Source: Lactiplantibacillus daoliensis
Lineage (GTDB): Bacteria > Bacillota > Bacilli > Lactobacillales > Lactobacillaceae
Assembly (NCBI RefSeq): GCF_005405005.1
Contig: NZ_BJDH01000001.1
Coordinates: forward strand, 1-64,000
DNA length: 64,000 nucleotides
Direction of reading: 5' to 3'
Of the stretch, positions 6,337-23,587 are shown piece by piece. Numbering within the stretch: position 1 is the first letter of the stretch; every line of letters begins with the position of its first letter. The notes below the pieces were generated by a model, which saw nothing but the letters and a program-made list of their open reading frames with translations, was not told the DNA's origin and did no database searches. The position numbers and the translations under genes were made by a program.

Positions 6337-6350
6337 CTGCAACCAGCACA

Positions 6351-6398: not shown

Positions 6399-6414
6399 AT
6401 ATTTATAGCAACCA

Positions 6415-8748: not shown

Positions 8749-9612
8749 TCAATTTCTCGGTTGTTGCTGATTTTGCTTTCGAATTTTACTTGGGACATTT
8801 TCATCCAAGAGATACTGCCGAATCAAACTAACAATCTGCTTATTTTGCGGTAAATCGGAATGGGCCGTATTGGCACCAGTGACCGTAATTTCCGTAAAAT
8901 GCTTAATTTCATCTTGAAAAATATACTTGCCATAGTTAACACTATTGTAGGGTACCGTACCATCACTCGTATAATTTTCAGTTCCCGCAATCGAATACGC
9001 CGTTAACCCATTAGGCAATCCGCTACGATACTGATAGAGCTCTTTAAACATGCTCGTTTTAGTCGTAGTACTGGTTGATTCCATATTAAACGGCGCGGCA
9101 ATCGTCATCAACCGATCAATATGCACTTTTGGTGATTGTTTCAGATAACGCTCTAAGAATAAGGTCCAGATCAACCCACCGTTCGAATGTCCCAGGGCGC
9201 GAAAGTGATTGAATTTATACGTCTTCACCAAATCCTTGAAGGCGATATTCAGCCAAACGGCTTGCTGATCAATATTTGCTTTGCCATCCTTATTATTCCC
9301 AAAGGCCACAATAATAAATGGTTGATTGTCATTCCGACCGATATTACCACTATATTTGATTTTTCCGCTTGTCTGCACGGTCAACTTCAAAACGCTATGT
9401 TGCTGTGGCGTTTCCTTACCTAATTCCGTAATCAAATCATCAAAGCGATTCTGACTAGCACTGGAACCTGGCACCATGATAACCGGAGCCATGCGTGTCC
9501 GACCGGCTGTTTTGAGTGACTTGATATTTGCTTTAGACCAAGTATAGGCCGGCCAACAAATCCCAATCAACACGAGCACACCGAGTGCCCATCGCCACCA
9601 ATTACGTTTCAT
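8749..9612 (-). CDS. Membrane-anchored/secreted alpha/beta hydrolase, DUF915 family (copy 1)
   Basis: 287 aa from ATG 9612 (GAGGGGAGG 7 nt upstream). One N-terminal hydrophobic segment (WALGVLVLIGICWPAY) anchors or exports it. The hydrolase domain starts with VIMVPGSSASQNRFDDL (oxyanion region). The nucleophile Ser sits in GHSNGG, the likely acid Asp in SDGTVP and the His in AHSDLPQN, a complete Ser-Asp-His triad. DUF915 proteins are lipase/esterase-like with unknown substrates. The gene overlaps the EIIC-like gene upstream by 11 nt, so the two are co-translated; the same overlap recurs in the second pair at 19095-21288, which argues for a functional link. Confidence 0.88.
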   Translation of the reverse strand: MKRNWWRWALGVLVLIGICWPAYTWSKANIKSLKTAGRTRMAPVIMVPGSSASQNRFDDLITELGKETPQQHSVLKLTVQTSGKIKYSGNIGRNDNQPFIIVAFGNNKDGKANIDQQAVWLNIAFKDLVKTYKFNHFRALGHSNGGLIWTLFLERYLKQSPKVHIDRLMTIAAPFNMESTSTTTKTSMFKELYQYRSGLPNGLTAYSIAGTENYTSDGTVPYNSVNYGKYIFQDEIKHFTEITVTGANTAHSDLPQNKQIVSLIRQYLLDENVPSKIRKQNQQQPRN

Positions 9613-10918
9613 CAGTAGGCCTCCCCTCAACAACGCGATTTTCTAGTAAGATGAACGGTAAATAAATGGCCGTTGCCACTGACAAATTCACCAAACTGAC
9701 CAGCAAAGCTCGCCAATCACCACCGCTCCCTAACCAGCCAACCAAAAATCCCGGCATAGTTCGACCAACCGGATAGACCACTGGTGGCATGACTCCCAGT
9801 TTCAGCGCACTCCAAGTAATCAATAGACTAGCTAATGGCGCCATTAAAAATGGTATTGCTAAAATAGGACTAAACATAATCGGCAAGCCCACTAACAACG
9901 GTTGATTAAAATTAAACAAGCTAGGCAGCCAACTCGCTTTGGCTACCGTGCGAAAGTCTGCATTGTGAGAACGCCACAGAATCGCAATCACCAATGCCAA
10001 CGTCATCCCTGGCCCACCAACGTTGGCAAAGCTATCGAAGATCGTATGTAGTGTGATTGGATTTGGTGCGCCCCAAGCTGAACCATGTTGCAGTGCATAT
10101 TCCAAATTTTGAACCGTACTGACTGAGCTATTACCACTAAAATCAATCGGACCAATAATCCCAATCACCCAGAAAAAGTTACTCAAAAAAGTCACACTCA
10201 CGATGTTCAGAAAAGCGCTGCCCGGATTGAAAAATGGCAACCGGAATACCGTATAGAATAGCCCATTGAGCCCATTTTTGCTTACAAAACTAATCCCATA
10301 GCTTAACAAACTAAAGCCTAATAAAGTGACGGTCATTGGCAACCAGTTCTCTTTTGCTCGACTCAATAAGTGCGTGCGAGTCTCAATCAATTGATGAGTA
10401 TGTGTTTTGAACGCCAGGTGATTGAATAGCCAGCCAGTAATCAGGCCAACTAATAAGGCAAGGAAAATTCCTTGCGAACCTAAATTTTGCTCAAGGAATC
10501 GTGAACTCGTTGGTTGATTTTGTTTAGTGAACGCAGCGTAATTAAAATTTAACAGACAAAAACTCACTGCCGCCGTTAATCCCGCCAATAAGTTATCTCG
10601 TCGTTGCGCCCGGACCGCAAAATTAGCTGCCGTAAATGCTGCGACCACAGCAATCACCCCGTTGAGCGTCAAACTCAACATGGTAGTATAAGTCGTCAAT
10701 GCTTTGAATCCTGGAAACCAACGATTTAAGTGATAAATTTGGGCGATGAAGCCACTTTTCTGAAAAATTGCTTGGTTAAAAACATTGATAAAAGCGCCAA
10801 TCAATACTAATGGAAATAGCAAGGTTAAGGTGTCCCGTAATGCGTGAAAATAGCGACGCCGATTCAGCCACGTTTCCCAGTTCAATAATTGATTTGCAAA
10901 TTGCTTAATCAAACTCAT
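9602..10918 (-). CDS. PTS EIIC-like membrane protein (lactose/cellobiose family) lacking catalytic His and Glu (copy 1)
   Basis: 438 aa with about ten hydrophobic segments and the general EIIC plan. In true EIIC proteins of this family a FGIHG motif and an N-x-N-E-P-x-x-F-G motif carry the His and Glu needed for sugar binding and phosphotransfer. Here the corresponding stretches read WVIGIIGPIDF (no His) and NFNQPLLVGLPI (Gln for Glu). No EIIA or EIIB gene is adjacent. It is therefore doubtful that it phosphorylates sugar; facilitated transport, sensing or partnership with the overlapping hydrolase are alternatives. The start at ATG 10918 abuts AGAGGGG; TTG 10912 has better spacing. Paralogue at 19963-21288. 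Confidence 0.82.
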   Translation of the reverse strand: MSLIKQFANQLLNWETWLNRRRYFHALRDTLTLLFPLVLIGAFINVFNQAIFQKSGFIAQIYHLNRWFPGFKALTTYTTMLSLTLNGVIAVVAAFTAANFAVRAQRRDNLLAGLTAAVSFCLLNFNYAAFTKQNQPTSSRFLEQNLGSQGIFLALLVGLITGWLFNHLAFKTHTHQLIETRTHLLSRAKENWLPMTVTLLGFSLLSYGISFVSKNGLNGLFYTVFRLPFFNPGSAFLNIVSVTFLSNFFWVIGIIGPIDFSGNSSVSTVQNLEYALQHGSAWGAPNPITLHTIFDSFANVGGPGMTLALVIAILWRSHNADFRTVAKASWLPSLFNFNQPLLVGLPIMFSPILAIPFLMAPLASLLITWSALKLGVMPPVVYPVGRTMPGFLVGWLGSGGDWRALLVSLVNLSVATAIYLPFILLENRVVEGRPTDET

Positions 10919-11056
10919 CCCCTCTATATGCCTGCTTAATCATAATATACACGCTCAACCGTTAATTGGCGACTAGACTTACTTTAAAGGTGCATTTAGC
11001 TTCCTAAGCGTTCATAAATCAGTTATGATTAAAACAAATTAATGGAGGTGGTCATG

Positions 11057-11497
11057 ATGCCAAACACTTATCAGCACGTCTTAATTCCAGTGGACAGTTC
11101 AACTGCTGCACAAGCCGCATTCAACGAAGCCGTGATCATTGCCCAACGCCATCAAGCGGCTTTAACGACGCTATATGTCGTCGATGATAGTGCCTACCAT
11201 ACACCCGCGTTAGATCCAGTTTTGAGTGAATTATTAGATGCCGAAGCAGCACATGCACAGGCCGCCATGGCCGATCGACGCCAGTTCGTTCAAACAACGA
11301 CAGTGACGGCCTTCAGAACCGAAGTCGCTTATGGTAATCCCAAGCGCCTAATTATTGATTATGCGAAACAACATCCTGAAATTGATTTAATTGTCCTTGG
11401 TGCAACTGGCAAAGACTCCCCACACCGCGTGGCCGTTGGATCGACAACGAGTTACGTGGTCGATCATGCTCCATGCAATGTTATTGTGATTCGCTGA
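11057..11497 (+). CDS. Universal stress protein, UspA family
   Basis: 146 aa from ATG 11057, behind GGAGGTGG (11044-11051). The first in-frame ATG at 11042 lies before the ribosome site and is excluded. Single Usp domain: N-terminal HVLIPVDSS strand, and the ATP-binding signature G-2x-G-9x-G-S/T near the C terminus (GATG...VGST), so it should be the ATP-binding type. Such proteins are induced by starvation, acid or stationary phase. Monocistronic, divergent from the EIIC-like operon, with its own terminator. Confidence 0.92.
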   Translation: MPNTYQHVLIPVDSSTAAQAAFNEAVIIAQRHQAALTTLYVVDDSAYHTPALDPVLSELLDAEAAHAQAAMADRRQFVQTTTVTAFRTEVAYGNPKRLIIDYAKQHPEIDLIVLGATGKDSPHRVAVGSTTSYVVDHAPCNVIVIR

Positions 11498-11505
11498 GCG
11501 ACACC

Positions 11506-11544
11506 AAACGCCACTACCGTTTTTGGGGAGTGGCGTTTTATTTT
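11506..11544 (+). terminator. Rho-independent terminator of uspA-type gene
   Basis: AAACGCCACT pairs with AGTGGCGTTT, followed by TATTTT. Repeat copy B begins at its 3' edge. Confidence 0.85.
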
Positions 11545-11545
11545 G

Positions 11546-11680
11546 GTCCTTTGCAAGTTAGAGTCTCCCCTAGCACGCCGATTTTGACTGACGGCGTACT
11601 AAATTTGGGTACATCTAATGACGTGACGGTTACTGGTAATCCTTCAGTTGTAATGTTTTTGAGACTTTCGCCCTTCAGCT
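11546..11680 (+). repeat. MITE-like element, copy B (internally deleted, ~135 bp)
   Basis: A degenerate derivative: TTGCAAGTTAGA resembles the left end, then the element jumps to the right module ATTTTGACTGACGG, GACGTGACGGTTACTG and the end CTTTCGCCCTTCAGCT. Its last bases overlap the TAG stop of the minus-strand DUF1697 gene. Left border approximate. Confidence 0.65.
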
Positions 11681-12215
11681 ATGGCTCAAATAATTGGGCC
11701 AATTTCATCGTGGTATTGAAATTGCGAGCACTAGTCTGTTGATAAAAAAGTGTACCCAGCAATTTAGAATAGAACGACTTACTATAGTTCACGCGTAACG
11801 TCGAGGTCCAAAAGATGATATTCGGGGTAATTAACACTTGATCGTATGCGGTTAACTTGGTTGGTAACCAATCATCATGTGCTCGATCATACGATTGTAA
11901 TTTAAACAGCGCATTATGTCGCAAAGTTGCATCCGCGCCCCACCAACTTGGTGCTAAGGCCAAATCTGCTTTGAATTCTGTCTCAGTCAACACCCGAAAA
12001 TCAATCGGAAAGTCAAAGTTAGTCGTCAAAATCGCCATCACTAAAGCTTCGATTTCGGGACGGGCAAGTCCACTGGTAAAAAACAAATTGCCGCTATTAA
12101 TATATGAATGAACTTGCGTACAACCAGCAACGGTAAACAATTCACGCAATGTCGCCATTGGCACACGATGATTGCCACCCACATTCACACCACGTAATAA
12201 TAATAAATAGGTCAT
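11679..12215 (-). CDS. DUF1697 family protein
   Basis: 178 aa from ATG 12215, 6-7 nt after GGAGGG; six extra upstream codons lack a ribosome site. Begins with the family hallmark LLLRGVNVGGNHRVPMATLR and continues with the conserved YINSGNLFF and a closing NFNTTMKL region. DUF1697 proteins are cytoplasmic, widespread and of unknown biochemical role. The stop codon lies at the very edge of repeat copy B. Confidence 0.88.
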   Translation of the reverse strand: MTYLLLLRGVNVGGNHRVPMATLRELFTVAGCTQVHSYINSGNLFFTSGLARPEIEALVMAILTTNFDFPIDFRVLTETEFKADLALAPSWWGADATLRHNALFKLQSYDRAHDDWLPTKLTAYDQVLITPNIIFWTSTLRVNYSKSFYSKLLGTLFYQQTSARNFNTTMKLAQLFEP

Positions 12216-12342
12216 TAGCACCCTCCATTTCATGAATATGCCATAAATTCAGAAAGAAAAACAGCTATCAATCAGATCGGTTCTAGACGTTTACTCTGTG
12301 CCAGTGTCATTATCAGGGTTAATCATTCCAACCGGTCCTGAC

Positions 12343-12387
12343 AAAAATCGCTTCACACTACCCTTATCGGCAAGTGTGAAGCGATTC
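12343..12387 (-). terminator. Rho-independent terminator downstream of tRNA-Arg
   Basis: Minus strand: AATCGCTTCACACT pairs with AGTGTGAAGCGATT, followed by TTTGTC. Confidence 0.85.
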
Positions 12388-12401
12388 AATAGTTATCAGA
12401 A

Positions 12402-12474
12402 TGACCCCATCCGGACTTGAACCGGAATCAACCGCTTAGGAGGCGGGTGCCCTATCCAGTTGTGCTATGAGGCC
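12402..12474 (-). tRNA. tRNA-Arg (anticodon CCT)
   Basis: 73 nt. The acceptor arm GGCCTCA pairs with TGGGGTC, discriminator A. The anticodon stem CCGC/GCGG encloses loop CTCCTAA, giving anticodon CCT, which reads AGG. The T arm contains GGTTCAAGTCC. CCA is not encoded. It lies 51 bp downstream of the DEAD-box helicase gene on the same strand and ahead of a terminator, so co-transcription with the helicase is possible. Confidence 0.93.
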
Positions 12475-12524
12475 AAACTCAATCCGTAAGATATCATCTC
12501 ACGGATTGAAAAATTTTTCAATTC

Positions 12525-13871
12525 TTACTTGGTGAAACGGTCACGATTCTTCTTCCGCATGCCTTTTTTCTTGGAATGCTTGTTGTGCCCTTTATGCTTC
12601 TTTGGCGCATTAAATTCGTCGGGTTTAACTGGCACTGCTCGACTAGGTGTGGCACCACGTTTAACCGTGTCCGGATGACCAGCACCTTCGACACGATGCC
12701 GTCCGGTCGCCGCTGCCGTCACACTACTTGGATGATCAAAAGTTAGCGGAGGCTTGACCTTGTCTGGCTTCGTATCAACGATTTGATAATCGACCAAATA
12801 ACCCGGTTTGAGGTCGTATTCAGTCGTTTTCATCATTTTCTTGAAGTCTCGAATATCATGATCATCACCGAGCGTCAAAACTAACCCTTCAGCGCCCATC
12901 CGCCCCGTTCGACCGCTACGATGAATATAAGTCGTAACATCTTTCGGCAGTTGATAATTAATAACCGCTGGCAATTCTGGCACATCTAATCCCCGAGCAG
13001 CCAAATCAGTCGTTAACAAAAGTTCTACCTTACCTTGCCGGAATAAGCGTAATGCCTTTTCTCGTTCAACTTGGCGTTGATTACTCGTTAACGCGACATA
13101 GCTCACATGTTGATGCCGTAGTTCGAGCGCAACATGCTGTAGTTCTTGCATTTTATTGAAGAAAACTAACGCTCGCATTCGATCCACACGACTGATTCTT
13201 TTCAGTAGATCCACACGATGTCGATTGCCGACTTCCATCGTGCGGTGCCGAACGATCCCCTGTGTTTGATCAATTGCGCGCACGTCAATTTTTTCGACCT
13301 CTTGACCAAACCAACGTGGCAATTCATCTAAAATTTTGGTTTCCGTGGCTGAGAAGAAGCCTAATTGTAACGTTTCAGCAAAGGTCGCATCCAAGATTTC
13401 ACGAATTTGATCTAACGTTTCATCCGTCAGCAATTCATCCGCTTCGTCGACAATCATCAATTTCAAATGACCCAGCTTAAGCTTGCCATCCGCAATCATA
13501 TTCGTCATTCGCCCAGGCGTCCCAACGACAATTTCCGGATGCTTCTTCAACTTTTCAGTTTGGCGTTTAACATTGGCGCCACCAGTAATCGCCAATACCT
13601 TGGCATCAATTAATTTTGCCCAGTCACGCACCACGTTCGTCGTCTGCATCGCCAACTCTTGTGATGGTGCCAGAATCATTGCTTGGGTGCCTTCACCAAC
13701 CCGAATATTGGCTAACATCGGCCAAGTGAACGCCAACGTCTTACCAGAGCCAGTTGGGGCTAAACCAAGCACAGAGGTGCCTTCAGCCATCGGTGTTGCC
13801 ACTGCCGTTTGAATCGGCGAAAATTCTGTAAAGCCCGCCGCGGCAAATTTTTCCTTAAATACGTCTAACAT
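12525..13871 (-). CDS. DEAD-box ATP-dependent RNA helicase
   Basis: 448 aa. All core motifs are visible in order: Q motif (FTEFSPIQ), motif I APTGSGKT (~39-46), Ia PSQELAMQ, Ib TPGR, II DEAD, III SAT, IV region LVFFNKMQEL, V LAARGLDVPEL, VI HRSGRTGR. A basic tail follows (lysine/arginine/histidine-rich, ~395-448), as in helicases that bind structured rRNA. Likely role in ribosome assembly or RNA decay and cold adaptation. The preceding oxidoreductase gene ends 12 bp upstream, and the ribosome site GAGGAAC lies between them, so they form an operon. Which csh-type paralogue it is cannot be decided here. Confidence 0.93.
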   Translation of the reverse strand: MLDVFKEKFAAAGFTEFSPIQTAVATPMAEGTSVLGLAPTGSGKTLAFTWPMLANIRVGEGTQAMILAPSQELAMQTTNVVRDWAKLIDAKVLAITGGANVKRQTEKLKKHPEIVVGTPGRMTNMIADGKLKLGHLKLMIVDEADELLTDETLDQIREILDATFAETLQLGFFSATETKILDELPRWFGQEVEKIDVRAIDQTQGIVRHRTMEVGNRHRVDLLKRISRVDRMRALVFFNKMQELQHVALELRHQHVSYVALTSNQRQVEREKALRLFRQGKVELLLTTDLAARGLDVPELPAVINYQLPKDVTTYIHRSGRTGRMGAEGLVLTLGDDHDIRDFKKMMKTTEYDLKPGYLVDYQIVDTKPDKVKPPLTFDHPSSVTAAATGRHRVEGAGHPDTVKRGATPSRAVPVKPDEFNAPKKHKGHNKHSKKKGMRKKNRDRFTK

Positions 13872-13883
13872 AGTTCCTCATTT

Positions 13884-14894
13884 CTATTTAGCGGACAACT
13901 GCCGTTCAGCATCATTAAAGTAAATGTGACCGGATTGCCGTAAATTAAATAATAATTGATTAACATCGCGGCTCAATTGCCGCCAATTTTGATAATCTGT
14001 TTTGTGACCAGTTGGATCATTGATGACCGCCGCAAAATCACGGGCTTCCGCCAACATGGGATTAGCGTCGGGTTGCACCCCAATTGTTTTGACTTGTCCG
14101 GTTACATCATGATAAGCGACTTGTGCGAGCTCAGCCGGATTGTTCATTACAATTGCATCACGCAACCCATTGATCTCAGATGGCAAAAATGAATTACTCG
14201 TCTTACCGACATTCAAAGTAATTGTAAAGTTTGGATAATTTAAGATTGCGATCCCTTTGCCATCAACATTAGTCCGTGTCAGCGTCGGCACATAAGTCTC
14301 CTTAACCGGTAACCCAAACCACCCAACCGCATCATAAACTAAGTAAACACCCAAGTCCTGCAAGGCACCACCCGCAAAATCTAACGAGAAGATGTTTGGC
14401 GTTTTACCGGCCAAAACAGCATCATACCGTGAAGAGTACTTCATATAGGTCAAGGTGGCCCCTTGAATCTGTGTCATTTTAGCAATTTGGTCTTTAACTC
14501 GCTTGAAGTTCACTTCATGAACCTGGCGTGCCGCTTCAAACAACAGACAGTTCGGATGGGCAGCCAAACAAGCGTCTAACTGTGCAAATTCAGCTGGATT
14601 TGCAACCGCCGGCTTTTCGACGATCACGTGCTTTTCATACTGTAACGCCAACTTAGCCTGTTCAAAATGCAAGCTATTTGGTGACGCAATGTAGACCGCG
14701 TCAAAGCTTCCTTGACTAAAAAACTGTTCTAAATCATCAAAAGTTTCTGCCACCTGATTCGTTGCGGCAAATTCTTTGGCCCGAGCCAACTGTCGTGAAT
14801 AGACCGTCGTCAACTGCCACGCACCAGACGCTTGCGCGGCATCAATAAATTGCTGCGTAATCCAGTTCGTTCCAATGATTCCTAATTTTAACAT
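13884..14894 (-). CDS. Gfo/Idh/MocA family NAD(P)-dependent oxidoreductase
   Basis: 336 aa from ATG 14894, 8-9 nt after AGAGGAG. N-terminal Rossmann domain KLGIIGTNWITQQF, the conserved VYIASPNSLH and the EKP signature (VIVEKPA) with its catalytic-site Lys, then a C-terminal sheet domain including DLGVYLVYDAVGWFG. Members act on sugars, inositols or related polyols; the substrate is not evident. It is the first gene of a two-gene unit with the DEAD-box helicase. A distinct family member is at 45101-46075. Confidence 0.88.
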   Translation of the reverse strand: MLKLGIIGTNWITQQFIDAAQASGAWQLTTVYSRQLARAKEFAATNQVAETFDDLEQFFSQGSFDAVYIASPNSLHFEQAKLALQYEKHVIVEKPAVANPAEFAQLDACLAAHPNCLLFEAARQVHEVNFKRVKDQIAKMTQIQGATLTYMKYSSRYDAVLAGKTPNIFSLDFAGGALQDLGVYLVYDAVGWFGLPVKETYVPTLTRTNVDGKGIAILNYPNFTITLNVGKTSNSFLPSEINGLRDAIVMNNPAELAQVAYHDVTGQVKTIGVQPDANPMLAEARDFAAVINDPTGHKTDYQNWRQLSRDVNQLLFNLRQSGHIYFNDAERQLSAK

Positions 14895-15189
14895 ACTCAG
14901 CACTCCTCTAAGTGAATGGTACCGTTTTAAATTTCACGAAACGCAATTAATCACTAATGCTAGTTTACCCCTTTTGAGCGTTATTTCGGACATTTCAACC
15001 TTAAAATAAAAAAGATTGGTCCATCTAAAAAATAGCAGTAACCTGCACAAAATTTTACGAAATATTACTTTCATTACCAACAGGTAACAGTGGTCTAAAA
15101 GCTTTGCTAAGAAACAGGTTATTGCGTGACGTTCGCCTTTCATTAGTGGTATATTTTAAGAGTAAACTTAATGAAAGAAGGTTGATCCG

Positions 15190-15573
15190 GTGAAGCGACG
15201 TGGCGCCATCTTATTTGGCTTATCATTATTGGCAGGACTCTCAAGCACATTTCTCCGCAAGCAGCACCCCTCAAAAACGGCAACTGGCGACTTAGCCGTC
15301 TTTTATGCTGGGACTTGGACCTATCGCGACGAAGAACATCACCGGGATCACAAGCTCGAAATTGATCCAAACATGATCATTCGCATCGATGGTCGGGCCA
15401 TGCCAGCAACGGTGGAATCAATTTCACCTAGTGAACTAGTTTTACTTGATAAATACGGTTTTCACTTACAAGTGCGAGCCAATGAACAGCGACCAGTGAG
15501 TTTATTCGACGAAGCGGACAATCGCAACTACGTGATTCTCTCCCCGAGTAGCCTCAATAAAGCTGCCAACTAA
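15190..15573 (+). CDS. DUF4828-type membrane-anchored small protein
   Basis: 127 aa from GTG 15190, with AGAAGG about 9 nt upstream. A basic start and short hydrophobic stretch (MKRRGAILFGLSLLAGLSS) act as signal or anchor. The remaining ~100 residues form a compact beta-rich domain: FYAGTWTYRDEE, LEIDPNMIIRIDGR, ELVLLDKYGFHL, NYVILS. This resembles the DUF4828 family of lactobacilli, function unknown. Single gene with its own promoter region (extended -10 TGGTATATT near 15150) and terminator. Confidence 0.7.
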   Translation: MKRRGAILFGLSLLAGLSSTFLRKQHPSKTATGDLAVFYAGTWTYRDEEHHRDHKLEIDPNMIIRIDGRAMPATVESISPSELVLLDKYGFHLQVRANEQRPVSLFDEADNRNYVILSPSSLNKAAN

Positions 15574-15576
15574 AAA

Positions 15577-15607
15577 ATTGCGACCAATTAACGGTCGCAA
15601 TTTTTTT
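15577..15607 (+). terminator. Rho-independent terminator
   Basis: ATTGCGACC pairs with GGTCGCAAT, followed by seven T. Repeat copy C begins about 10 bp later. Confidence 0.9.
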
Positions 15608-15616
15608 ATCTCATTA

Positions 15617-15719
15617 ACTAAAAGCTACAAGACTAAAACGCATCACAAATATAGCAGTATCAGTGACCGTTACGGCTAAAGTAGACCTTTCCAAATTCAG
15701 CGCTCCGTCAGTCCTTAGT
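15617..15719 (-). repeat. MITE-like element, copy C (103-bp deletion derivative)
   Basis: Read on the minus strand: it begins ACTAAGG, jumps straight to ACTGACGGAGCGC, continues TGAATTTGGAAAGGTCTAC and ends GTAGCTTTTAGT. Both termini are present with almost all of the interior deleted. Its first bases supply the last codon and TAA stop of the GH25-like gene. No clear target duplication. Confidence 0.7.
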
Positions 15720-16491
15720 TTAAACCGGCAGCGACTAAATCTTGATAATCCTGATTGGTTCCGTTGAAAACGACTCCTGTGAATTCCTGAGTTGTACCAT
15801 TTTGGCGATAAACCGCTCGATCAGAATAGTTCATGAAGATAACCCGCTGTGGCCGTTTATGTGTCTCACTCGTTGCCAACCACAGTGGCGATTTAGTAAT
15901 GACTGGCGCCACCAACTGCTTAGCAACGGCTGGTGTGGCCCAAATCACACACGTGCGATCATAATGCTCAGTCAGCTTCAACACTAATGCCCGCAATTGT
16001 GTTTGCGCGGCTCGCGTATTGACCGTTTTGGCCGTGTAATCACCATAATACTGGACTTGAATCGCAATTGGCAGATTCCCAATATTCTGATCCACGACTT
16101 TTTCAAAATAGGCCGCTTGCGCCTTACCAGAACTAGAAAAGCTGAAGACCTGTGAAACGCCCACGCCTAGACTAGTCCCCAAAACACGTGAATAATTGCT
16201 AGAAAAATTGTCATCCGTATAGCTAGCCCCTTGCGTACTTTTGAGATACACAAATTTGAGTCCATCATGTTCCAACGCATCAAAGTCTAAATAACCATCA
16301 TTTTGCGTGACCGCGATGCCACGGACATCAAAACCTTTAACTACCTCTGCCTGGCGATTGTGCAGCCACTGCAAGCCGCTCCACACCAGCCCAACGATTA
16401 GCAACACAAGGAACAGCCAGCTCAATCGACGACGCCATTTAGCACCGCGAGTCTGCGCATATACTGGTCGAAAATGCTGTCGTTTTGTCAT
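15715..16491 (-). CDS. GH25 (lysozyme)-fold membrane protein lacking the catalytic acids
   Basis: About 258 aa. A basic N terminus and one membrane helix (LSWLFLVLLIVGLVWSGL) are followed by a domain with the GH25 plan: KGFDVRGIAV (first conserved Asp kept), YLDFDALEHDGLKFVYLKSTQGASY, and a closing FNGTNQDYQDL. In active GH25 muramidases a P-x-x-x-D-x-E motif carries the catalytic residues; here the matching stretch is LPIAIQVQYYGDY, with Gln at both acidic positions. It is therefore probably not an active muramidase and may bind peptidoglycan instead. The start is ambiguous (ATG 16491 or 16500; weak ribosome site). Its stop codon lies in repeat copy C. Confidence 0.78.
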   Translation of the reverse strand: MTKRQHFRPVYAQTRGAKWRRRLSWLFLVLLIVGLVWSGLQWLHNRQAEVVKGFDVRGIAVTQNDGYLDFDALEHDGLKFVYLKSTQGASYTDDNFSSNYSRVLGTSLGVGVSQVFSFSSSGKAQAAYFEKVVDQNIGNLPIAIQVQYYGDYTAKTVNTRAAQTQLRALVLKLTEHYDRTCVIWATPAVAKQLVAPVITKSPLWLATSETHKRPQRVIFMNYSDRAVYRQNGTTQEFTGVVFNGTNQDYQDLVAAGLN

Positions 16492-16521
16492 CCAATCCAT
16501 CCCATCTTACAAAAATCAGTA

Positions 16522-17397
16522 CTAGAGTTCTGTCCGAGTGCGACTTATCGTCTGCCGGACGCGCCCTAGACTAGCTGCCATCTGACCGTTACCATGGACA
16601 GCTGTCATTAAAAATAAACTATCAATAATACTCATTTGCGCAATTAACGAGGTAAGCCCCTCGGAACGGTAGTTGACCTCTTCCGCCACTGAAATAAATG
16701 CCACCGTACTAGCTTGTGCCAACGGAGAGTTGCCAAAGCTGGTCAGCGCGATGACCGGCACTTTTTGTGCGACCAACGTCGACAACAGCTGCAACGTCTG
16801 TTGATTCCGACCGGTGTGCGAAATGACAACCGCCACGTCTTTAGTGGTCATTTGTGCTGCTTGCATTAGTTGCATATCATAGTCACTATTTTGCGCACAA
16901 AAAATACCCGTCCGCACGAACTTATGATAACCATCTAGTGCCGCCACAGCTGATCCACCGAGTCCATAGAAGCCTATCGTATGGGCAGTCGTTAACAAGT
17001 TGACGGCCTTGGCTAGATCAGCCTCGGTCATGACTTGACTCGTCTGGTCCAAGGAACTGCGGATACTATTAAACGTTGAATCCGCAATACCTTTCAACGT
17101 TGTCTGTTTTTCAACATCCTGAAAGGCTTCCGCATTTGTTCGTTCCAGCGGTTCAGCCGCCGTTAATTCCCGTGAAAAATCTCGGAAGCTATTAAAACTA
17201 ATTCGTTTAACAAAACGCGAGACAGTGGCCGTCGATACGCCCACTGCCGCTGCTAAATCTGAAATTGATTGGGCCGCCGTCTTGACGGGGTCCTGAATGA
17301 TATAATCCGCAATTTTGCGATCCGTGTGACTTAAATTAGGATAGTACGACCGAATCAAGGTCAAAACGCGATTACGATGTGTGGCTTTTGCAGACAC
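16522..17397 (-). CDS. MurR/RpiR family transcriptional regulator
   Basis: 291 aa from GTG 17397, 5-6 nt after GGAGGTGG. N-terminal helix-turn-helix of the RpiR type (LSHTDRKIADYI, then SDLAAAVGVSTATVSRFVKRISF) and a C-terminal SIS sugar-phosphate binding domain (IGFYGLGGSAVAALDGYHKF; VAVVISHTGRNQQTLQLL). It is divergent from the gluconokinase gene, which it most likely controls in response to a phosphorylated sugar acid such as 6-phosphogluconate (inference from context and family). Confidence 0.9.
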   Translation of the reverse strand: MSAKATHRNRVLTLIRSYYPNLSHTDRKIADYIIQDPVKTAAQSISDLAAAVGVSTATVSRFVKRISFNSFRDFSRELTAAEPLERTNAEAFQDVEKQTTLKGIADSTFNSIRSSLDQTSQVMTEADLAKAVNLLTTAHTIGFYGLGGSAVAALDGYHKFVRTGIFCAQNSDYDMQLMQAAQMTTKDVAVVISHTGRNQQTLQLLSTLVAQKVPVIALTSFGNSPLAQASTVAFISVAEEVNYRSEGLTSLIAQMSIIDSLFLMTAVHGNGQMAASLGRVRQTISRTRTEL

Positions 17398-17418
17398 GCT
17401 GCCCACCTCCATGACCAA

Positions 17419-17465
17419 ATTTTACCACAGTTTCTCAAATCCCCGTAGATTTCTCATTGCGACCG
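17419..17465. promoter_or_regulatory. Possible RpiR operator upstream of gluconokinase
   Basis: The 101-bp divergent region has a direct repeat TTTCTCA spaced by 12 nt (TTTCTCA-AATCCCCGTAGA-TTTCTCA). Direct-repeat operators occur among RpiR proteins, but no promoter box was clear, so this is tentative. Confidence 0.3.
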
Positions 17466-17518
17466 CTACCAAAGTTGACTAAACTAAGAGTATTAAAGGC
17501 TTTGAAAGGATTACGCTT

Positions 17519-19018
17519 ATGACAGAAATTATTGGTGTCGACATCGGCACTACCAGCACTAAAATCGTGTTATACGATCAGACGGGCACCGCTATCGCTA
17601 GTGCCAATCATGGCTACCCCCTTTATCAAACCGAAGTTGGCATGGCTGAAGAAGATCCGGCGGCAATTTACGACGCCGTCATCACAGGTCTAACCGAAGT
17701 AACGGCTAAAGCTACCCAACCAATCGCCGGGATCAGCTTCTCGGCGGCCATGCATAGTTTGATTCTGCTTGATGACCACTTTGCGCCATTGACCCGTATG
17801 TACACTTGGGCAGACAACCGGGCTGCCTCCGCTGCCCAACAGTTACGCGAACGGCCAGATGCACACGCATTATACTGGCGCACGGGAACTCCCATACATC
17901 CGATGACGCCATTGTCAAAGTTGGTCTGGTTAGCCCAAACGCAGCCCGCCTTGCATCAGCAAGCACGCTGGTTTGTTGATATTAAAGCTTACGTGTTACA
18001 GCGTCTATGTGGTCAACTCGTCACCGACTATTCAATCGCCAATGCGACGGGATTGTTTGATCTCCATCAGCTCAAGTGGGACTCACAAGCATTACAATTG
18101 GCCCAAGTCCGCGCCGAACAACTACCACAACTAGTAGATACGACGACCCAACTAACTGGCTTAACACCACAGCTTGCCAAACAATTGGGACTGTCACCTA
18201 ATACACCATTAATTGTCGGCGCCAGTGATGGTTGTCTGGCTAACTTAGGCGTTAATGCCATCGAACCCGGCGTTGCCGCCATCACGATTGGAACTTCCGG
18301 AGCTGTGCGAGTCGTCACTGATCAACCAAAACTTGATCCACAAGGCCGTCTATTCTGCTATTATCTGGCGCCAAACCGTTGGGTCATTGGTGGACCAGTC
18401 AATAATGGCGGTAACGTTTTACATTGGGTCCAAACAACGTTGTTCGCCACGGAAAATCCTGATAAACCGCTGACCTATGAACAGATTACTCGTCTGGCTA
18501 CCCAAGTTCCTGCTGGTAGCCACGGGTTACTCATGCACCCTTATCTGAATGGTGAGCGTGCCCCACTTTGGGATGCGAATGCGCGTGGCGCCTACTTTGG
18601 CTTAACCGCTCGGCATTCGCGCGCAGATCTGGCCCGAGCTGCTCTAGAAGGAATCTGCTTCAATCTGGCCCATGTCGCCAAAATGGTGCAAGCACTGACT
18701 GGCCCCTTCACAAACTTACAGGCCAGCGGCGGTTTTACCCGTTCCGAAACTTGGCGTCAAATCTTAGCTGATAGTTTTGATACGACCGTAACCATCCCGG
18801 CGAGCTTTGAGAGCTCAAGTTTAGGCGCTGCCGTGTTAGGTTTAGCAAGCTTAGGGTTGATCCCTGACCTCAGCGCAGTTCAGACAATGGTTGCTAACGA
18901 CCAACAACAGCTCCCGAAAGAGACCAACGTTGCCATCTATCGCGAGTTATATCCAATTTATGAACAACTCGCCACTGCTTATCAGCCCATTTATCAGCAG
19001 TTAGCCAAATTTAAGTAA
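17519..19018 (+). CDS. gntK: Gluconate kinase, FGGY family
   Basis: 499 aa from ATG 17519 (GAAAGGA upstream). Phosphorylates gluconate to 6-phosphogluconate for the phosphoketolase or pentose phosphate route. The FGGY carbohydrate kinase fold is visible: phosphate-binding GVDIGTTSTKIVLYD at the N terminus, ISFSAAMHSLILLD, the adenosine loop GASDGCLANLGV and TIGTSGAVRVV, and the second-domain signature ASGGFTRSETWRQILAD followed by ESSSLGAAVLGL. Family members also act on xylulose or glycerol; gluconate is favoured by overall resemblance to Gram-positive GntK and the divergent RpiR regulator. No gluconate permease is adjacent. Confidence 0.85.
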   Translation: MTEIIGVDIGTTSTKIVLYDQTGTAIASANHGYPLYQTEVGMAEEDPAAIYDAVITGLTEVTAKATQPIAGISFSAAMHSLILLDDHFAPLTRMYTWADNRAASAAQQLRERPDAHALYWRTGTPIHPMTPLSKLVWLAQTQPALHQQARWFVDIKAYVLQRLCGQLVTDYSIANATGLFDLHQLKWDSQALQLAQVRAEQLPQLVDTTTQLTGLTPQLAKQLGLSPNTPLIVGASDGCLANLGVNAIEPGVAAITIGTSGAVRVVTDQPKLDPQGRLFCYYLAPNRWVIGGPVNNGGNVLHWVQTTLFATENPDKPLTYEQITRLATQVPAGSHGLLMHPYLNGERAPLWDANARGAYFGLTARHSRADLARAALEGICFNLAHVAKMVQALTGPFTNLQASGGFTRSETWRQILADSFDTTVTIPASFESSSLGAAVLGLASLGLIPDLSAVQTMVANDQQQLPKETNVAIYRELYPIYEQLATAYQPIYQQLAKFK

Positions 19019-19023
19019 TTCTA

Positions 19024-19078
19024 AATAAATAGCAGTCAATTGATTTTTCTAAACGAGAATCAATTGACTGCTATTTTA
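19024..19078. terminator. Bidirectional rho-independent terminator
   Basis: AAATAGCAGTCAATTGATT pairs with AATCAATTGACTGCTATTTT. It serves gntK (plus) and the convergent hydrolase gene at 19095 (minus). Confidence 0.9.
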
Positions 19079-19094
19079 CTTCACTAACGCCTAA

Positions 19095-19973
19095 CTAGTT
19101 TGCGCCCATCAAGGCTTTCGTCGGCGTCTTCTTCTTGCTGTCTAAAATATACTCTTGAATCAAACTCACGATTTGTTCATTTTGTGGCAAATCCGAATGT
19201 TGCGCATTGTCACCCGTCACCGTGACTTCTGTGTAGTGCTTAACTTGTCCTTGATAAACATATTTACCGGCTTCAACACTACGAGCAGGCACTAATCCAT
19301 CTGAATCATAATTTTCAGTCCCGGCAACTGAGAACACGGCCAGTTGCTTTGGTAGCCGATCGCGATACTTAATAAAATCAGCTAACATTTGGGTTTTATG
19401 ACTAAGGTTTGCTTCTGAGAAATTATACGGCGACCCAATCGTCATCAATTTTTTCACCGTAATATCATCACGAGTGAAGTAGTGTTCGAAAAAGTAAGTG
19501 TAAACCAACCCACCGTTCGAATGACCAATCGCCTTAAAATTATTAAATTGGTACCGACGAGCGAGCAGCTTGAATGCCAATGAAAACCATTTGGCTTGTT
19601 TCTGAATATTACCATAGCCGTCTTTATTATTTTCAAAACCGACGACAATAAACGGTTCATTATCCCGTGGACGCAACGTTCCGGTTGACTTGATTGTCCC
19701 ATCCGTTTTAACCGTCAGCTTAATCAAGCTATGCCGTTGCTTATCTGCCTTGTTCAACTGGGTCACGAGTCGATCGAAGCGATTTTGTGTCGCACTGCTA
19801 CCAGGTATTAAGATCACTGGCGACATTCGTGAGTCATGGCGACCAGCCATTGACTTAACGTTGGCCTGGGTCCATTGATAAGCTGGAAAAATTAACGCGG
19901 CTAAAAAGACAGCTACGAGGACCAGCACCCATAAACTGTTGCGCCGACGCTGTTGCCATAAATTAATTTTCAT
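19095..19973 (-). CDS. Membrane-anchored/secreted alpha/beta hydrolase, DUF915 family (copy 2)
   Basis: 292 aa from ATG 19973 (GGAG about 9-10 nt upstream). Paralogue of the 8749-9612 product throughout: N-terminal anchor (LWVLVLVAVFLAALIFPAY), PVILIPGSSATQNRFD, nucleophile GHSNGG, acid in SDGLVP and His in QHSDLPQN, so the triad is intact. It ends in a Lys/Thr-rich tail. It overlaps the EIIC-like gene by 11 nt (19963-19973), exactly as in the first pair. Lipase/esterase-like family; substrate unknown. Confidence 0.88.
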   Translation of the reverse strand: MKINLWQQRRRNSLWVLVLVAVFLAALIFPAYQWTQANVKSMAGRHDSRMSPVILIPGSSATQNRFDRLVTQLNKADKQRHSLIKLTVKTDGTIKSTGTLRPRDNEPFIVVGFENNKDGYGNIQKQAKWFSLAFKLLARRYQFNNFKAIGHSNGGLVYTYFFEHYFTRDDITVKKLMTIGSPYNFSEANLSHKTQMLADFIKYRDRLPKQLAVFSVAGTENYDSDGLVPARSVEAGKYVYQGQVKHYTEVTVTGDNAQHSDLPQNEQIVSLIQEYILDSKKKTPTKALMGAN

Positions 19974-21288
19974 TGCCGGTCATCTCCGATCGCAAAATTT
20001 CTTCATGAGCGGCGTGCAGTGTGGCCTCGGCCAAGTGCATAAACGGCAAATAAATCAAAACGGAGATCGCCAAATCTAGCATCCCAATCACGAGGGCCAT
20101 CCAATTCCCGTTGGTTCCAATGAATGCAATCAATGGCCCCGGTGTCCCCAATGGCACTGGATAGACCATTGGTGGCAACCAGTGTAACCAAATTGCCAGT
20201 GCGGCAACGGCCATATTAATCAAGGGTGCCAACACAAATGGGACGGCATAAATCAGGTTATACAAAATCGGTAACCCCGTCATCATTGGGCCATTACTAT
20301 TAAACAACGCTGGTACAAGACTCCAACGTGCAACCACGTGATAATTATGATTATGACTGCTGATAATAATGGCAATAATCAACGCCAGTAGCATCCCCGT
20401 CCCGCCAAAGGTCCCAAACGCCTCATACAAAGTATGGGCCGTATATGGATATGGCACGTGATACGCCGAGTGATGGCTGAGCGCATAATTTAAATTAGTC
20501 GTCATCGACGGCGTATTAGCAAGAATCCGTTGTTGAAAAGGTCCCGCAAAGCCTAAAATTTCCATGATTAACGATAATGCCGCCACACCGAACATCAGAC
20601 CAACACTGTGGCTAGTCATTGCTATCTTTTGTAATTGTTCCAACGTCTGTTCCGAATAATCCAATAACATCAACCAATTAATCGCCAATCCAGCACCGAC
20701 CGCAAGTAAAAAGCTCAAGGTCATTGGCAACAGCGACGCAAATGTCCGATCCAAGATTTGCGTTGTATGGCTTTGGCGCGGCGTATCCGTCGATTTACCC
20801 AATAAACGAAAAAAGACGCCCACAATCATACCAATGATAATCGCACTCGTTAGCCCATTCGTCCCAATTAAGACCGGATTAAATGATCCTTGACCTTGAT
20901 CCGAGTAGTCATAGGCCACTAGCAGTAGTGCAATTGCCCCAGTTAGTCCAGCCAACTGATCATCGCGATGATAAATTTTGGCGTAATATTTGGCTGCGCC
21001 AAACGCTGCAATAATCGCCACGCTATTCAGTGTCAAGTCAGTGAGACTGTCAAACGGATAATGTAAATATTTATAATATGGCACCCAAGTCGACAAATGA
21101 AAAATACTCGCCAAAAAGCCCGTTTTTGTCAATAAAGTTAGTTGGATAATCTGGCTAAAACTGCCAATCAAGACAAATGGAAAAGTTAGCATTACTGTTC
21201 GCTGGATGACACGATAAAAATCGGTCTGTCGTACCCGTAAAAAAGTTGGTACCAACCGATTAATTAGTTGTTGTTCACTGATTGCCAT
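19963..21288 (-). CDS. PTS EIIC-like membrane protein lacking catalytic His and Glu (copy 2)
   Basis: 441 aa from ATG 21288. An upstream in-frame ATG at 21318 lies within about 10 bp of the -10 box TATAAT (~21327), so it would sit at or before the RNA start. About ten membrane segments in the lactose/cellobiose EIIC arrangement. The two functional motifs are altered even more than in copy 1: MEILGFAGPF where FGIHG is expected (no His), and NSNGPMMTGLPI where N-x-N-E-P is expected (Gly for Glu). No EIIA or EIIB is nearby. The glycine-rich loop GTFGGTGMLLAL typical of EIIC is kept, so the scaffold is maintained while phosphotransfer residues are gone. Confidence 0.82.
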   Translation of the reverse strand: MAISEQQLINRLVPTFLRVRQTDFYRVIQRTVMLTFPFVLIGSFSQIIQLTLLTKTGFLASIFHLSTWVPYYKYLHYPFDSLTDLTLNSVAIIAAFGAAKYYAKIYHRDDQLAGLTGAIALLLVAYDYSDQGQGSFNPVLIGTNGLTSAIIIGMIVGVFFRLLGKSTDTPRQSHTTQILDRTFASLLPMTLSFLLAVGAGLAINWLMLLDYSEQTLEQLQKIAMTSHSVGLMFGVAALSLIMEILGFAGPFQQRILANTPSMTTNLNYALSHHSAYHVPYPYTAHTLYEAFGTFGGTGMLLALIIAIIISSHNHNYHVVARWSLVPALFNSNGPMMTGLPILYNLIYAVPFVLAPLINMAVAALAIWLHWLPPMVYPVPLGTPGPLIAFIGTNGNWMALVIGMLDLAISVLIYLPFMHLAEATLHAAHEEILRSEMTGNEN

Positions 21289-21843: not shown

Positions 21844-23211
21844 TTAATATAGCCGAATTGAACCAGAAGTCGTTCGACCTTTGACGGTATACTTAGCCGT
21901 TGTCCCGACTCGCCCCGTTTGATAGCCATCCGCAATATGTTCTGGTTGCGAATTGGCGGGAGCAATCACCCGACCACTACGCGCTTCCAATTCATAACGA
22001 TAACTAGCGTCGCGTGGCAAGCCAAACTTAATCGAACCACTCTTGTCACTGAGGTTCAAATCACCAGTCAAACGCTCAAATGCGAGTTTCATTGACCCGG
22101 ATTTCGCCGTCCAACTTCCCCCACCAACCAGCTCGTTGCCTTGGATACTACCACTGGTCACATTGACCGTGAATTGACCAGCTTGAACCTTAGCCAACTT
22201 GAGCCGGCCACTTTTGACTAACATCCCAAATTGATCCGTCACGTGAACACTGCTCATCACCAGACTGCCAGAAACGACCTCTGTACTCAACGCTTGCGCC
22301 GTGACGGTATCCAGTTTGCAACTGCCACTAGTCACCCGTAGATTAACCACGTTTAAACGAGTTAAGCCAGCCATTAAAACTGTTCCCGAAGCGCTGGCCA
22401 ATTGTAAGTTGCCGAGATATTTAGTAGGAACCAAGATTTGCACATGCACCCGCAATGGAATTAGAAATGGCACCTTACCCTGTTCAATCGTCAAGGTCGT
22501 GCCAGCCTGAACCGTTGTGGCCTGATATGTCGTGTTATTGTGATTCATATATTCCCGAATAATAATCTCGTCATCGCCACCGACTGTCGGCAAAACCTTA
22601 ACTCGCGCCGACCGGTAACTAATCGACAGGTCATCAAGGCCAGCCATGGCAAACCGTTGTTCATTCACTAATGGCAAATTATCGTGATATTCCCCAGCTA
22701 AATTCAACGGTTGTACCGGTGTACCAAAGTTAGGTTCCGCTGCTGCCTGCGTGTGTTGATGAATCCCCTCATCATTGATGATCAAATCACCAAGTTTTAA
22801 GCCATTTTTGTCAGCTTTAATGGCACCATTGTTGATTGAAACGCCCGTCGCATCTGCACTAAAGACCCGACCATCCTTGACGGTAATACCGTCAGAATTA
22901 ATTTTTAACGTGTCACCGTCATCAATCTCCAGACCATCACTATCCATAACAACATGATGGGCATGCAGGTTAGTCTCGTTACCGTTCTCATGGTTGACCT
23001 GCTGAATCAGCTCATTGATATCGCCAAAGTCACTAAAAGCTTCCGCGACAGCGGCCTCCGCATCCAGACCACTTTCTTTTTTATCATTAGCAGCCTCGTT
23101 TAAGTCCGTTGCTAACTCCGTTTTTAACTCAGTCATCGCTGGCGTCATGGTTTGCGTTTTAAAATAAGTGCTAAGCCGCATCGCGACCAATTGTTCAATC
23201 TTTTCTGACAT
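21844..23211 (-). CDS. HAAS-domain/DUF4097 protein, PadR-linked
   Basis: 455 aa from ATG 23211 (GGGAGG 10 nt upstream). The first ~80 residues are helical and resemble the HAAS domain found beside PadR genes (AVAEAFSDFGDINELIQQV). Short beta segments with GLEIDDG, NSDGITV and NNGAIKADKNGL follow. From ~190 there are many short strands rich in Gly, Ser, Val and Thr (LASASGTVLMAGL, VTSGSCKLDTV, VKSGRLKLAKV, TSGSIQG), a right-handed beta-helix of the DUF4097 type. No signal peptide or membrane helix is obvious, unusual for an adhesin annotation. Overlaps the PadR gene by 17 nt, so they are co-expressed. Envelope-stress role is inferred from such pairs elsewhere. Confidence 0.8.
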   Translation of the reverse strand: MSEKIEQLVAMRLSTYFKTQTMTPAMTELKTELATDLNEAANDKKESGLDAEAAVAEAFSDFGDINELIQQVNHENGNETNLHAHHVVMDSDGLEIDDGDTLKINSDGITVKDGRVFSADATGVSINNGAIKADKNGLKLGDLIINDEGIHQHTQAAAEPNFGTPVQPLNLAGEYHDNLPLVNEQRFAMAGLDDLSISYRSARVKVLPTVGGDDEIIIREYMNHNNTTYQATTVQAGTTLTIEQGKVPFLIPLRVHVQILVPTKYLGNLQLASASGTVLMAGLTRLNVVNLRVTSGSCKLDTVTAQALSTEVVSGSLVMSSVHVTDQFGMLVKSGRLKLAKVQAGQFTVNVTSGSIQGNELVGGGSWTAKSGSMKLAFERLTGDLNLSDKSGSIKFGLPRDASYRYELEARSGRVIAPANSQPEHIADGYQTGRVGTTAKYTVKGRTTSGSIRLY

Positions 23212-23554
23212 CTGCGTCAATCCTCCCTAAGATCAATTCATCAATAACTTGCTTGGCAAAATGCCATTCCGCCACATTATGTTCTAGCGTTTGTTGGCCT
23301 TGCGCGGTAATCTGATAATATTTGCGGCGACCGCCCTGGGTTTCATTGCCCCAATAACTTGCAATCTCACCATTTTTTTCTAAACGGCGAAAAACAGTAT
23401 ACAAGGTCGCTTCATTGATATCATAAGCCCCATGGCTCAGCGACTTAATGGTCTTCGCAATCGCATAACCATAGCTATCCCCTTGATTCAAAATATTCAG
23501 CACAATCGTGGTGGTATGACCACGGATTGTCTCTTTTGAAATTTCTGGTTGCAT
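23195..23554 (-). CDS. PadR family transcriptional regulator
   Basis: 119 aa from ATG 23554 after GAAAGGAAGG. Winged helix domain of the PadR type: TTIVLNILNQGDSYGYAIAK, INEATLYTVFRRLEKNGEI, and the wing GGRRKYYQIT, with a C-terminal helix. First gene of the operon with the HAAS-DUF4097 protein. Probably autoregulated through the inverted sequences around its promoter. Confidence 0.92.
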   Translation of the reverse strand: MQPEISKETIRGHTTTIVLNILNQGDSYGYAIAKTIKSLSHGAYDINEATLYTVFRRLEKNGEIASYWGNETQGGRRKYYQITAQGQQTLEHNVAEWHFAKQVIDELILGRIDADVRKD

Positions 23555-23587
23555 GCCGACCTTCCTTTCAGATTTAGTATTGTGTGT

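Follow-up and report, generated by a model that had tools for sequence, protein, structure and literature searches.

The window analyzed here, i.e. the whole stretch of 64,000 nucleotides from Lactiplantibacillus daoliensis, carries two pairs of genes, each encoding an EIIC-like membrane protein (hereafter E) and a DUF915 hydrolase (hereafter D). The ORF listing places both pairs where the sequence-only reading had located them, on the same (minus) strand and in the same order. In copy 1, E1 (9602..10918; 438 aa), assigned to the LacE/ChbC family from its ORF, Pfam, an alignment to ChbC and an AlphaFold2 model, is followed by D1 (8749..9612; 287 aa counted from the ATG, the mechanical ORF beginning at TTG 9633), an alpha/beta hydrolase with a hydrophobic N-terminal segment and then the hydrolase domain. 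In copy 2, E2 (19963..21288; 441 aa, or 451 aa from an in-frame ATG further upstream at 21318), identified by its ORF, Pfam and the ChbC alignment, is followed by D2 (19095..19973; 292 aa), an alpha/beta hydrolase recognized from its ORF, Pfam and solved relatives. Both E proteins match PTS_EIIC (PF02378) over the cut-off (9.7e-21 for E1 and 2.9e-15 for E2) and both D proteins match DUF915 (PF06028; 3.3e-59 for D1 and 8.9e-63 for D2, i.e. 201 and 212 bits compared to a cut-off of 22). The end of E overlaps the start of D by 11 nt in each pair (9602..9612 and 19963..19973, minus strand); these overlaps, previously described as identical, share their length but not their letters (ATGAAACGTAA and ATGAAAATTAA). 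The pairs count as duplicated only if old paralogues are meant: E1 and E2 share just 35% identity, D1 and D2 51%, and E1 and E2 fall in different parts of the E tree. All matches of the genome to PF02255 and PF02302 lie off the window's contig, in agreement with the earlier remark that no EIIA or EIIB is found near either pair.

The histidine of the GIHG motif and the glutamate of the NxNEP motif, which we take to be the sugar/phosphotransfer site of LacE/ChbC-type EIICs, are replaced in both E proteins of the window, as had been noticed from the letters. In phmmer alignments to ChbC (3qnq), the residues opposite the histidine are Ile255 in E1 (10154..10156, minus strand) and Ala248 in E2 (20545..20547, minus strand), and those opposite the glutamate are Gln339 in E1 (9902..9904, minus strand) and Gly333 in E2 (20290..20292, minus strand). 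Neither the alignment nor a motif scan found an intact His or Glu elsewhere in these two proteins; the scan detected a GxHG string at another place only in a few other members of E. The replacement extends far beyond the window: among 107 distinct pairs (duplicates being collapsed to distinct D), the histidine is kept in none and the glutamate in 14, 12 of which belong to one group, so that both positions are lost in 93/107. A second set, which shares species with the first and was therefore counted separately, gave 0/81 for His and 3/81 for Glu. Near relatives with an intact site are found in beta-glucoside-type operons (L121, with IIB, ROK and IIA genes according to Pfam; L232-L237 and L239). 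Among hand-picked EIIC loci, D adjoins 0/9 of those with intact His and Glu and 10/10 of those in which His is missing; 18 loci had been picked for the EIIC-D association, some with D already known, and two of them (L242 and L245) repeat L092 and L110. One locus at a contig end (L247) and one fragment (L233_0) were set aside from the tree and from this association. It should be emphasized that loss of His alone does not prove the loss of PTS function, since an EIIC encoded in an IIB-IIC-IIA operon of the same genome as the window (L015) carries GISG in place of GIHG. This third low-scoring EIIC of the genome was considered as a further degenerate case and rejected, because it keeps Glu and has IIB-like and IIA-like genes alongside.

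E shares sequence homology and a predicted fold with LacE, CelB and ChbC (TIGR00410, PF02378; 3qnq). The AlphaFold2 model of E1 has a pLDDT of 87.8 and a pTM of 0.86, and both E models find their closest PDB counterpart in ChbC 3qnq, which is also the best match by sequence; the likeness measured by Foldseek (probability 1.00, TM 0.43) is significant but modest. Unlike LacE/ChbC EIICs, E has lost His in every pair examined and Glu in most of them, is adjoined by D and occurs in genomes without detected Enzyme I; in addition, E1 and E2 (191 and 153 bits) fall below the curated TIGR00410 cut-off of 236 bits and IIA/IIB are absent from the contig of the window.

The Ser-Asp-His triad, previously read as complete in both hydrolases of the window, is indeed present in D1 (S143, 9184-9186; D217, 8962-8964; H251, 8860-8862; minus strand) and in D2 (S152, 19518-19520; D225, 19299-19301; H259, 19197-19199; minus strand), and is kept in 107/107 distinct paired D. 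An N-terminal hydrophobic segment was found in 97 of these 107 proteins and a lipobox-like motif in one. The solved relatives of D2 are 3lp5, 3ds8 and 3fle, the best match being 3lp5 from L. plantarum. D is a full member, triad included, of the DUF915 (PF06028) surface hydrolases grouped in LaCOG families in a passage of PMC3017865, which in 2010 described these proteins as present in nearly all lactic acid bacteria, which suggested to its authors an essential function, not assigned at that time. One DUF915 enzyme of a natural community, whose subfamily is not established, was captured by a serine-hydrolase activity probe according to an excerpt of PMC11145796. Ester hydrolase activity is the predicted function of D. 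Within DUF915, E adjoins the subfamily of D (at least 250 bits to A2), whereas 13 other DUF915 loci (L119-L131) are devoid of E.

The pairing was surveyed in loci chosen by D and not by E (14 + 7 + 18 + 80, the 80 being the best 80 of 420 relatives). E adjoins D in 14/14, 6/7, 16/18 and 80/80 of them, i.e. in 116/119 loci and for 109/112 distinct D, so that the association first noticed in a single genome proves strong outside it. Some E in the best-80-of-420 set are fragments (L175, L204). For loci up to L150, 107/111 distinct strong D were found paired by script, plus one (L098) on inspection. The two genes overlap or are separated by at most 12 nt in 111 of the 116 paired loci, as calculated from mechanical starts. 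Three genes of the paired subfamily (L117, L149 and L150) are devoid of E, and D can therefore exist alone. A relative of D (E ≤ 1e-25) was detected in 211/301 Lactobacillaceae genomes drawn, the adjoining E being checked in part of them. Searches of plasmid and phage collections with D2 gave no sign of mobility of the D subfamily: the matches consist of four plasmid records (one of 760 kb from L. fermentum, 58%, and three from Listeria, 29%) and ten phage-labelled records from Listeria and Enterococcus (27-30%). A L. fermentum record annotates E as "PTS sugar transporter subunit IIC". Our literature searches gave no description of the E-D pair; lp_2737/lp_2738, considered as a possible pair in L. 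plantarum, was ruled out, lp_2738 being called an asparaginase.

The pair is also found where the PTS was not. In a set of 42 genomes, Lac EIIA was not found in 14; among these 14, EIIB was not found in seven and the N-domain of Enzyme I in four. The C-domain of Enzyme I gave no match over the cut-off in G028 or in any of the 13 genus g2 genomes, whereas controls matched in 14/14. Within genus g2, the searches for EIIA, EIIB and the N-domain of Enzyme I and the reading of adjacency covered G001 and G041, and the other 11 genomes have a D match. E-D pairs were read in G001, G041 and G028, in which EIIA, EIIB and both Enzyme I domains were not found, and in 12 loci that are Fructobacillus or near-Fructobacillus (among the best 80 of 420 relatives); across its domain, the D of G041 is identical to its F. 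papyriferae counterpart (L159). A passage of PMC4696137 reports none, or one at most, of the PTS genes in Fructobacillus. In those of the genomes read that are devoid of the PTS, E has diverged beyond recognition by Pfam PTS_EIIC at an E-value of 0.01. G017 was initially taken as devoid of Enzyme I and was dropped since the C-domain search gave a match. Twelve of the 14 genomes without detected EIIA were seen to carry the pair (from a locus or from coordinates), including G294, which has a stop in E. In the 42-genome set, D is unpaired in G018 (L149) and broken in G004 (L078); adjacency was inspected in genomes other than G017, G048, G061 and G068. Because genomes with no detected EIIA, EIIB or Enzyme I, above all those of Fructobacillus, still keep the pair, it appears to work without the PTS, and we consider it very probable that E is PTS-independent and functionally tied to D.

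In a tree of 134 rows (132 of them differing), all 117 paired E rows lie on one side of a branch and 17 others on the opposite side, pointing to an old family rather than a recent duplication. The distances between E proteins are strongly correlated with those between D proteins (r = 0.89, compared to 0.09 for the highest of 500 permutations). E-D is an old family across Lactobacillaceae and relatives, and the genome of the window holds two distant members of it. The earlier idea of a transporter scaffold repurposed alongside an esterase holds as regards its uncoupling from the PTS (His 0/107, Glu 14/107), its tie to a hydrolase whose triad is complete and the wide occurrence of the pair; its scope was too narrow.

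We propose that E and D form one cell-envelope unit that makes no use of the PTS. E would be a member of the LacE/ChbC fold that has lost its coupling to sugar phosphorylation and most likely continues to act as an elevator, moving a substrate or a product across the membrane in unphosphorylated form. D, encoded by the overlapping gene and held by its single N-terminal hydrophobic segment, would be exposed on the outer face of the membrane, presumably in physical contact with E, and would act as a serine ester hydrolase or transacylase that makes or consumes the cargo of E. Natural candidate substrates are envelope glycolipids or acylated envelope sugars. Taken as a whole, this picture of an elevator uncoupled from the PTS that serves an extracytoplasmic serine esterase anchored in the membrane is an interpretation that we hold to be only slightly more apt to be right than wrong.

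The main rival to transport is a non-transporting scaffold, in which E would be an anchor, a chaperone or a regulatory subunit that places D or feeds it bilayer lipid, all the chemistry being that of D; we consider it possible but distinctly less probable. Among positions conserved at 90%, only 4/23 are polar in E compared to 32/66 in D, and at matched divergence the conservation of the NxNE loop is lower in paired E (0.429) than in the other EIICs (0.493); a shared small-sugar site is therefore not visible in E. The two sugar-site columns of paired E hold many different residues, and divergence is faster in E than in D (median distances of 0.72 and 0.53, respectively), as would suit a scaffold. 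However, it is mainly the substrate-carrying half of EIICs that is constrained in E, more than in the eight EIICs that make up the whole control: at matched divergence, conservation reaches 0.338 in the C half and 0.225 in the N half of paired E, compared to 0.308 and 0.263 in these other EIICs. Furthermore, the glycines and prolines of the C (transport) half are kept, and D likely has an anchor of its own in 97/107 pairs.

Some transporter-derived sensors have lost their coupling residues and kept their fold, which could speak for E as a sensor of a ligand, controlling D or signalling through it. This nevertheless seems improbable to us: E, at 427-469 aa in 58 loci, leaves little space for an added signalling domain, and we found no constant third partner over 36 neighbourhoods (neighbours being partly read by eye), the commonest being ABC ATPases (12 loci) and a two-gene cluster, c3+c4 (6). 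We saw no evidence of sensing, and the pattern of constraint in E fits a presumed transport role better. That E is still a PTS porter, with a dispensable His and EIIA/EIIB borrowed in trans, would suit the PTS operon of L015 and the 14 pairs that keep Glu; however, it is strongly disfavoured, and we regard it as very unlikely, given the loss of both site residues in 93/107 pairs and the presence of the pair in G001, G041 and G028. Lastly, the view that E and D are mere neighbours without any functional link, which the three lone D genes could favour, is contradicted by how widely the pair is conserved amid otherwise changing neighbours, by its tight spacing and by the correlated divergence of its members, and is the least credible of all.

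The hydroxyl on C6 is the one normally phosphorylated by such PTS porters. In a bolder reading, the PTS porter fold would now act as a flippase or exchanger, its cargo being an acylated glycan or an envelope lipid with a sugar head, and D, a serine esterase/transacylase at the outer face, would add or remove a fatty acyl group on the sugar. This reading is rather unlikely in our opinion; if it is true, we know of no earlier lipid-linked transporter of PTS origin. A glycolipid carrying a fatty acid on C6 of glucose is mentioned for L. casei and L. plantarum in an excerpt of PMC5328823. The Dlt machinery, another combination of a transporter and an extracytoplasmic esterase, includes a surface carboxylesterase, DltE, which a passage of PMC10241514 presents as a D-Ala esterase acting on lipoteichoic acid in L. 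plantarum; this likeness between envelope machineries is by analogy alone and no homology is claimed.

EIICs are usually annotated as parts of sugar-uptake systems, and this is also the case for E. Counts of "incomplete PTS" in lactobacilli (e.g. those given in a section of PMC2848229) may consequently include proteins that do not belong to the PTS. Our results describe an old EIIC branch that has left the PTS and constitutes half of an apparent surface system of lactic acid bacteria. Since this unit is kept in species without a PTS uptake system, its job is probably different from PTS sugar uptake, and the E partner offers a direct test of the old question of DUF915 function.

Both E genes of the window, E1 (9602-10918) and E2 (19963-21288), which encode EIIC-like membrane proteins, match Pfam PTS_EIIC, and both D genes, D1 (8749-9612) and D2 (19095-19973), match the hydrolase family DUF915 and carry the Ser, Asp and His of the triad. 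All four lie on the minus strand, at the coordinates given in the sequence-only reading, and D starts within the final codons of E, with an 11-nt overlap in both pairs (ATGAAACGTAA and ATGAAAATTAA). Its claim that E1 and E2 have lost the sugar-porter residues while D1 and D2 keep the triad was borne out by reading the D residues and by alignment of E to the solved ChbC structure 3qnq (Ile in E1 and Ala in E2 at the GIHG His position, Gln and Gly, respectively, at the NxNEP Glu position). E1 and E2 score 191 and 153 bits with the LacE subfamily model, both below its 236-bit cut-off, and D2 finds its best match among solved structures in 3lp5, a cell-surface hydrolase of L. plantarum. The whole genome shows DUF915 matches at ten places (11 rows, two of them for one gene) and LacE-family matches at nine (10 rows, two for one gene); no D-like gene was found in the 1.5-kb flanks read on either side of its other seven EIICs. 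Another DUF915 gene (C1:412906-413649) lies, by sequence reading, between nusG-like and ribosomal protein L11/L1-like genes, an odd position for a surface hydrolase. Upstream of the second pair (21844-23590), the gene of a DUF4097 (toastrack) protein overlaps one that, read from the sequence, resembles a PadR-type regulator.

Among the best EIIC-like matches in 301 Lactobacillaceae genomes, the own genome excluded, all 58 loci picked by E have a same-strand D match after E, in pieces in two cases (L067 and L078). Since these loci were chosen by E, the search was reversed and loci were chosen by D. E directly precedes D in 14/14 loci of a first set, ten of them from genomes without a match at 1e-40 in either E search. 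Six of seven strong D loci from f4, another family of the order, are also paired (in one of them D is split in two), as are 16 of 18 further loci (one with a broken D) and all 80 named loci of a genome_contigs scan, the best 80 of 420 relatives. Recounted under one rule, and including these best 80 of 420 relatives, 116 of 119 D-picked loci are paired (109/112 distinct D). This survey, proposed as a check in the sequence-only reading, shows that it was right to tie E to D but too narrow in scope: the pair is present in the window, but it is a family trait across many genera. Named hosts include Fructobacillus, Convivina, Leuconostoc, Weissella, Lactococcus piscium, L. chungangensis, Limosilactobacillus, Lacticaseibacillus, Ligilactobacillus, Levilactobacillus, Lactobacillus, Pediococcus and an Enterococcaceae MAG. 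In a class-wide draw (299 genomes, 119 genera), matches with an E-value of 1e-50 or lower occur in 12 genomes, from families f1 and f4 only.

Three D-picked loci lack E (L117, L149 and L150); in the first, from f4, the place of E before a paired-type D is taken by a gene that reads as serine beta-lactamase-like (4411-6445). None of thirteen DUF915 loci scoring below 250 bits to A2 (L119-L131) is paired. In 5/36 neighbourhoods of the pair, a beta-lactamase-like cluster (c7) was seen at a distance of a few genes. Six of the 36 (L084, L086, L093, L095, L096 and L098) carry nearby a two-gene cluster, c3+c4 (about 150 and 250 aa), which by eye resembles a split threonine/serine exporter; a similar-looking gene couple adjoins an unpaired DUF915 gene of the own genome (L002). 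In L067, L078, L132 and L148, the D copy is interrupted and the adjoining E is open.

Aligning the His and Glu columns, another check proposed earlier, gave no His in 107 distinct pairs (Ile in 39, Ser in 24, Ala in 16, and eleven other residues) and Glu in 14/107, 12 of these 14 coming from one related group, while the hydrolase triad is intact in all 107. A second, overlapping set gave His in 0/81 and Glu in 3/81. Eight comparison EIICs with no directly adjoining D keep His in 7/8 and Glu in 8/8. Among eighteen hand-picked loci, with one contig-end EIIC set aside, none of the nine EIICs that keep both GIHG and NINEP is beside D and all ten without His are, two of the ten repeating loci already counted. 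His loss alone is not proof, because the one exception among these eight, a LacE-type EIIC of the own genome (C3:276561-277748), has GISG instead of GIHG, keeps NINEP and sits in an IIB-IIC-IIA operon, where its neighbours are IIB-like, IIA-like and glycosidase-like. Therefore, His is not universal even among apparently working PTS porters.

The nearest relatives with intact His and Glu lie in beta-glucoside-type operons, with IIB, IIA and ROK (Pfam) in L121, where the opposite strand carries two unpaired-type DUF915 genes nearby, and with GH1-like and ROK-like genes in L232 and L236 (sequence reading). In a quick maximum-likelihood tree, one branch parts the 107 paired E from the eight others (SH-aLRT 99); in a larger one (134 rows, 132 different), 117 paired E are split from 17 others (SH-aLRT 100), finer placement being unsure owing to many long branches. 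E1 and E2 fall in separate regions of the paired group. Therefore, the duplication noted earlier is old, not recent. Distances between E correlate with those between D (0.89, against at most 0.09 in 500 permutations), as expected of co-inherited genes; the correlation says nothing about contact.

Lac-type EIIA was not found in 14 of 42 genomes searched, a set spanning genera with D; among these 14, the EIIB domain was not found in seven and the Enzyme I N-domain in four, and an adjacent pair was seen in 12. A search of 16 genomes for the second Enzyme I domain found none over the cut-off in 13/13 genomes of genus g2 nor in G028, with 14/14 control genomes positive and one sub-threshold match in G073. 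G017 was dropped as an Enzyme I-less genome after a second-domain match. Since G028 is incomplete (91%, 110 contigs), genus g2 carries the argument. The pair was read in two of its genomes (G001 and G041), whose D domains match those of Leuconostocaceae bacterium ESL0958 and Fructobacillus papyriferae exactly; the pair is also present in 12 Fructobacillus or near-Fructobacillus loci. PMC4696137 reports a single PTS gene at most, or none, for Fructobacillus. The E-D pair very probably needs no PTS, and the earlier claim of lost PTS coupling is right: paired E lacks His throughout and Glu in most cases, and the pair persists in genomes in which no Enzyme I was found. E of G001, G041 and G028 (L145, L146 and L147) escapes Pfam PTS_EIIC at E 0.01, but the family profile detects it at 115-350 bits. 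Annotation will therefore undercount the pair. For the G028 protein, too, the best match of the predicted model (pLDDT 82.7, pTM 0.80) is ChbC (prob 1.00, TM 0.44).

In 97/107 pairs, a hydrophobic stretch lies close to the N-terminus of D, and one D carries a lipobox-like motif; we infer from these sequences that it is probably a membrane-anchored enzyme facing outwards. A DUF915 enzyme of a natural community reacted with a serine-hydrolase probe (PMC11145796), which favours real catalysis in this family. The confident EIIC-type model of E (pLDDT 87.8, pTM 0.86) has ChbC as its nearest structure, though at a modest TM (0.43), and reaches 0.53 with MalT, a difference that may reflect another elevator position. 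The C half of EIICs holds the sugar. In divergence-matched comparisons, it is more conserved than the N half in paired E (identity 0.338 vs 0.225), by a wider margin than in the eight other EIICs (0.308 vs 0.263). Selection therefore still guards the moving part of E, which argues against a mere anchor and favours continued transport. The facilitator or sensor role proposed in the sequence-only reading remains hypothetical. E may instead have a lipid-facing or scaffold role: the NxNE loop is less conserved in paired E than in the other EIICs (0.429 vs 0.493) and only 4/23 of the 90%-conserved positions of E are polar (32/66 in D), so that no common polar sugar site can be made out.

According to PMC11878206, the function of DUF915 is unknown, and PMC3017865 describes two DUF915 groups of unknown function as ubiquitous in lactic acid bacteria. 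The former lists 6-phospho-beta-galactosidase and PTS EIIC and IIA genes as staphylococcal DUF915 neighbours, presumably a different setting from the E-D pair. No description of the pair was found in the open-licence papers searched, where absence is no proof. The best reading is an elevator uncoupled from the PTS that would supply or clear the substrate or product of D, a putative surface esterase. As far as we found, E-D is a conserved and apparently undescribed system of two proteins, probably of the cell surface, that combines two known folds.
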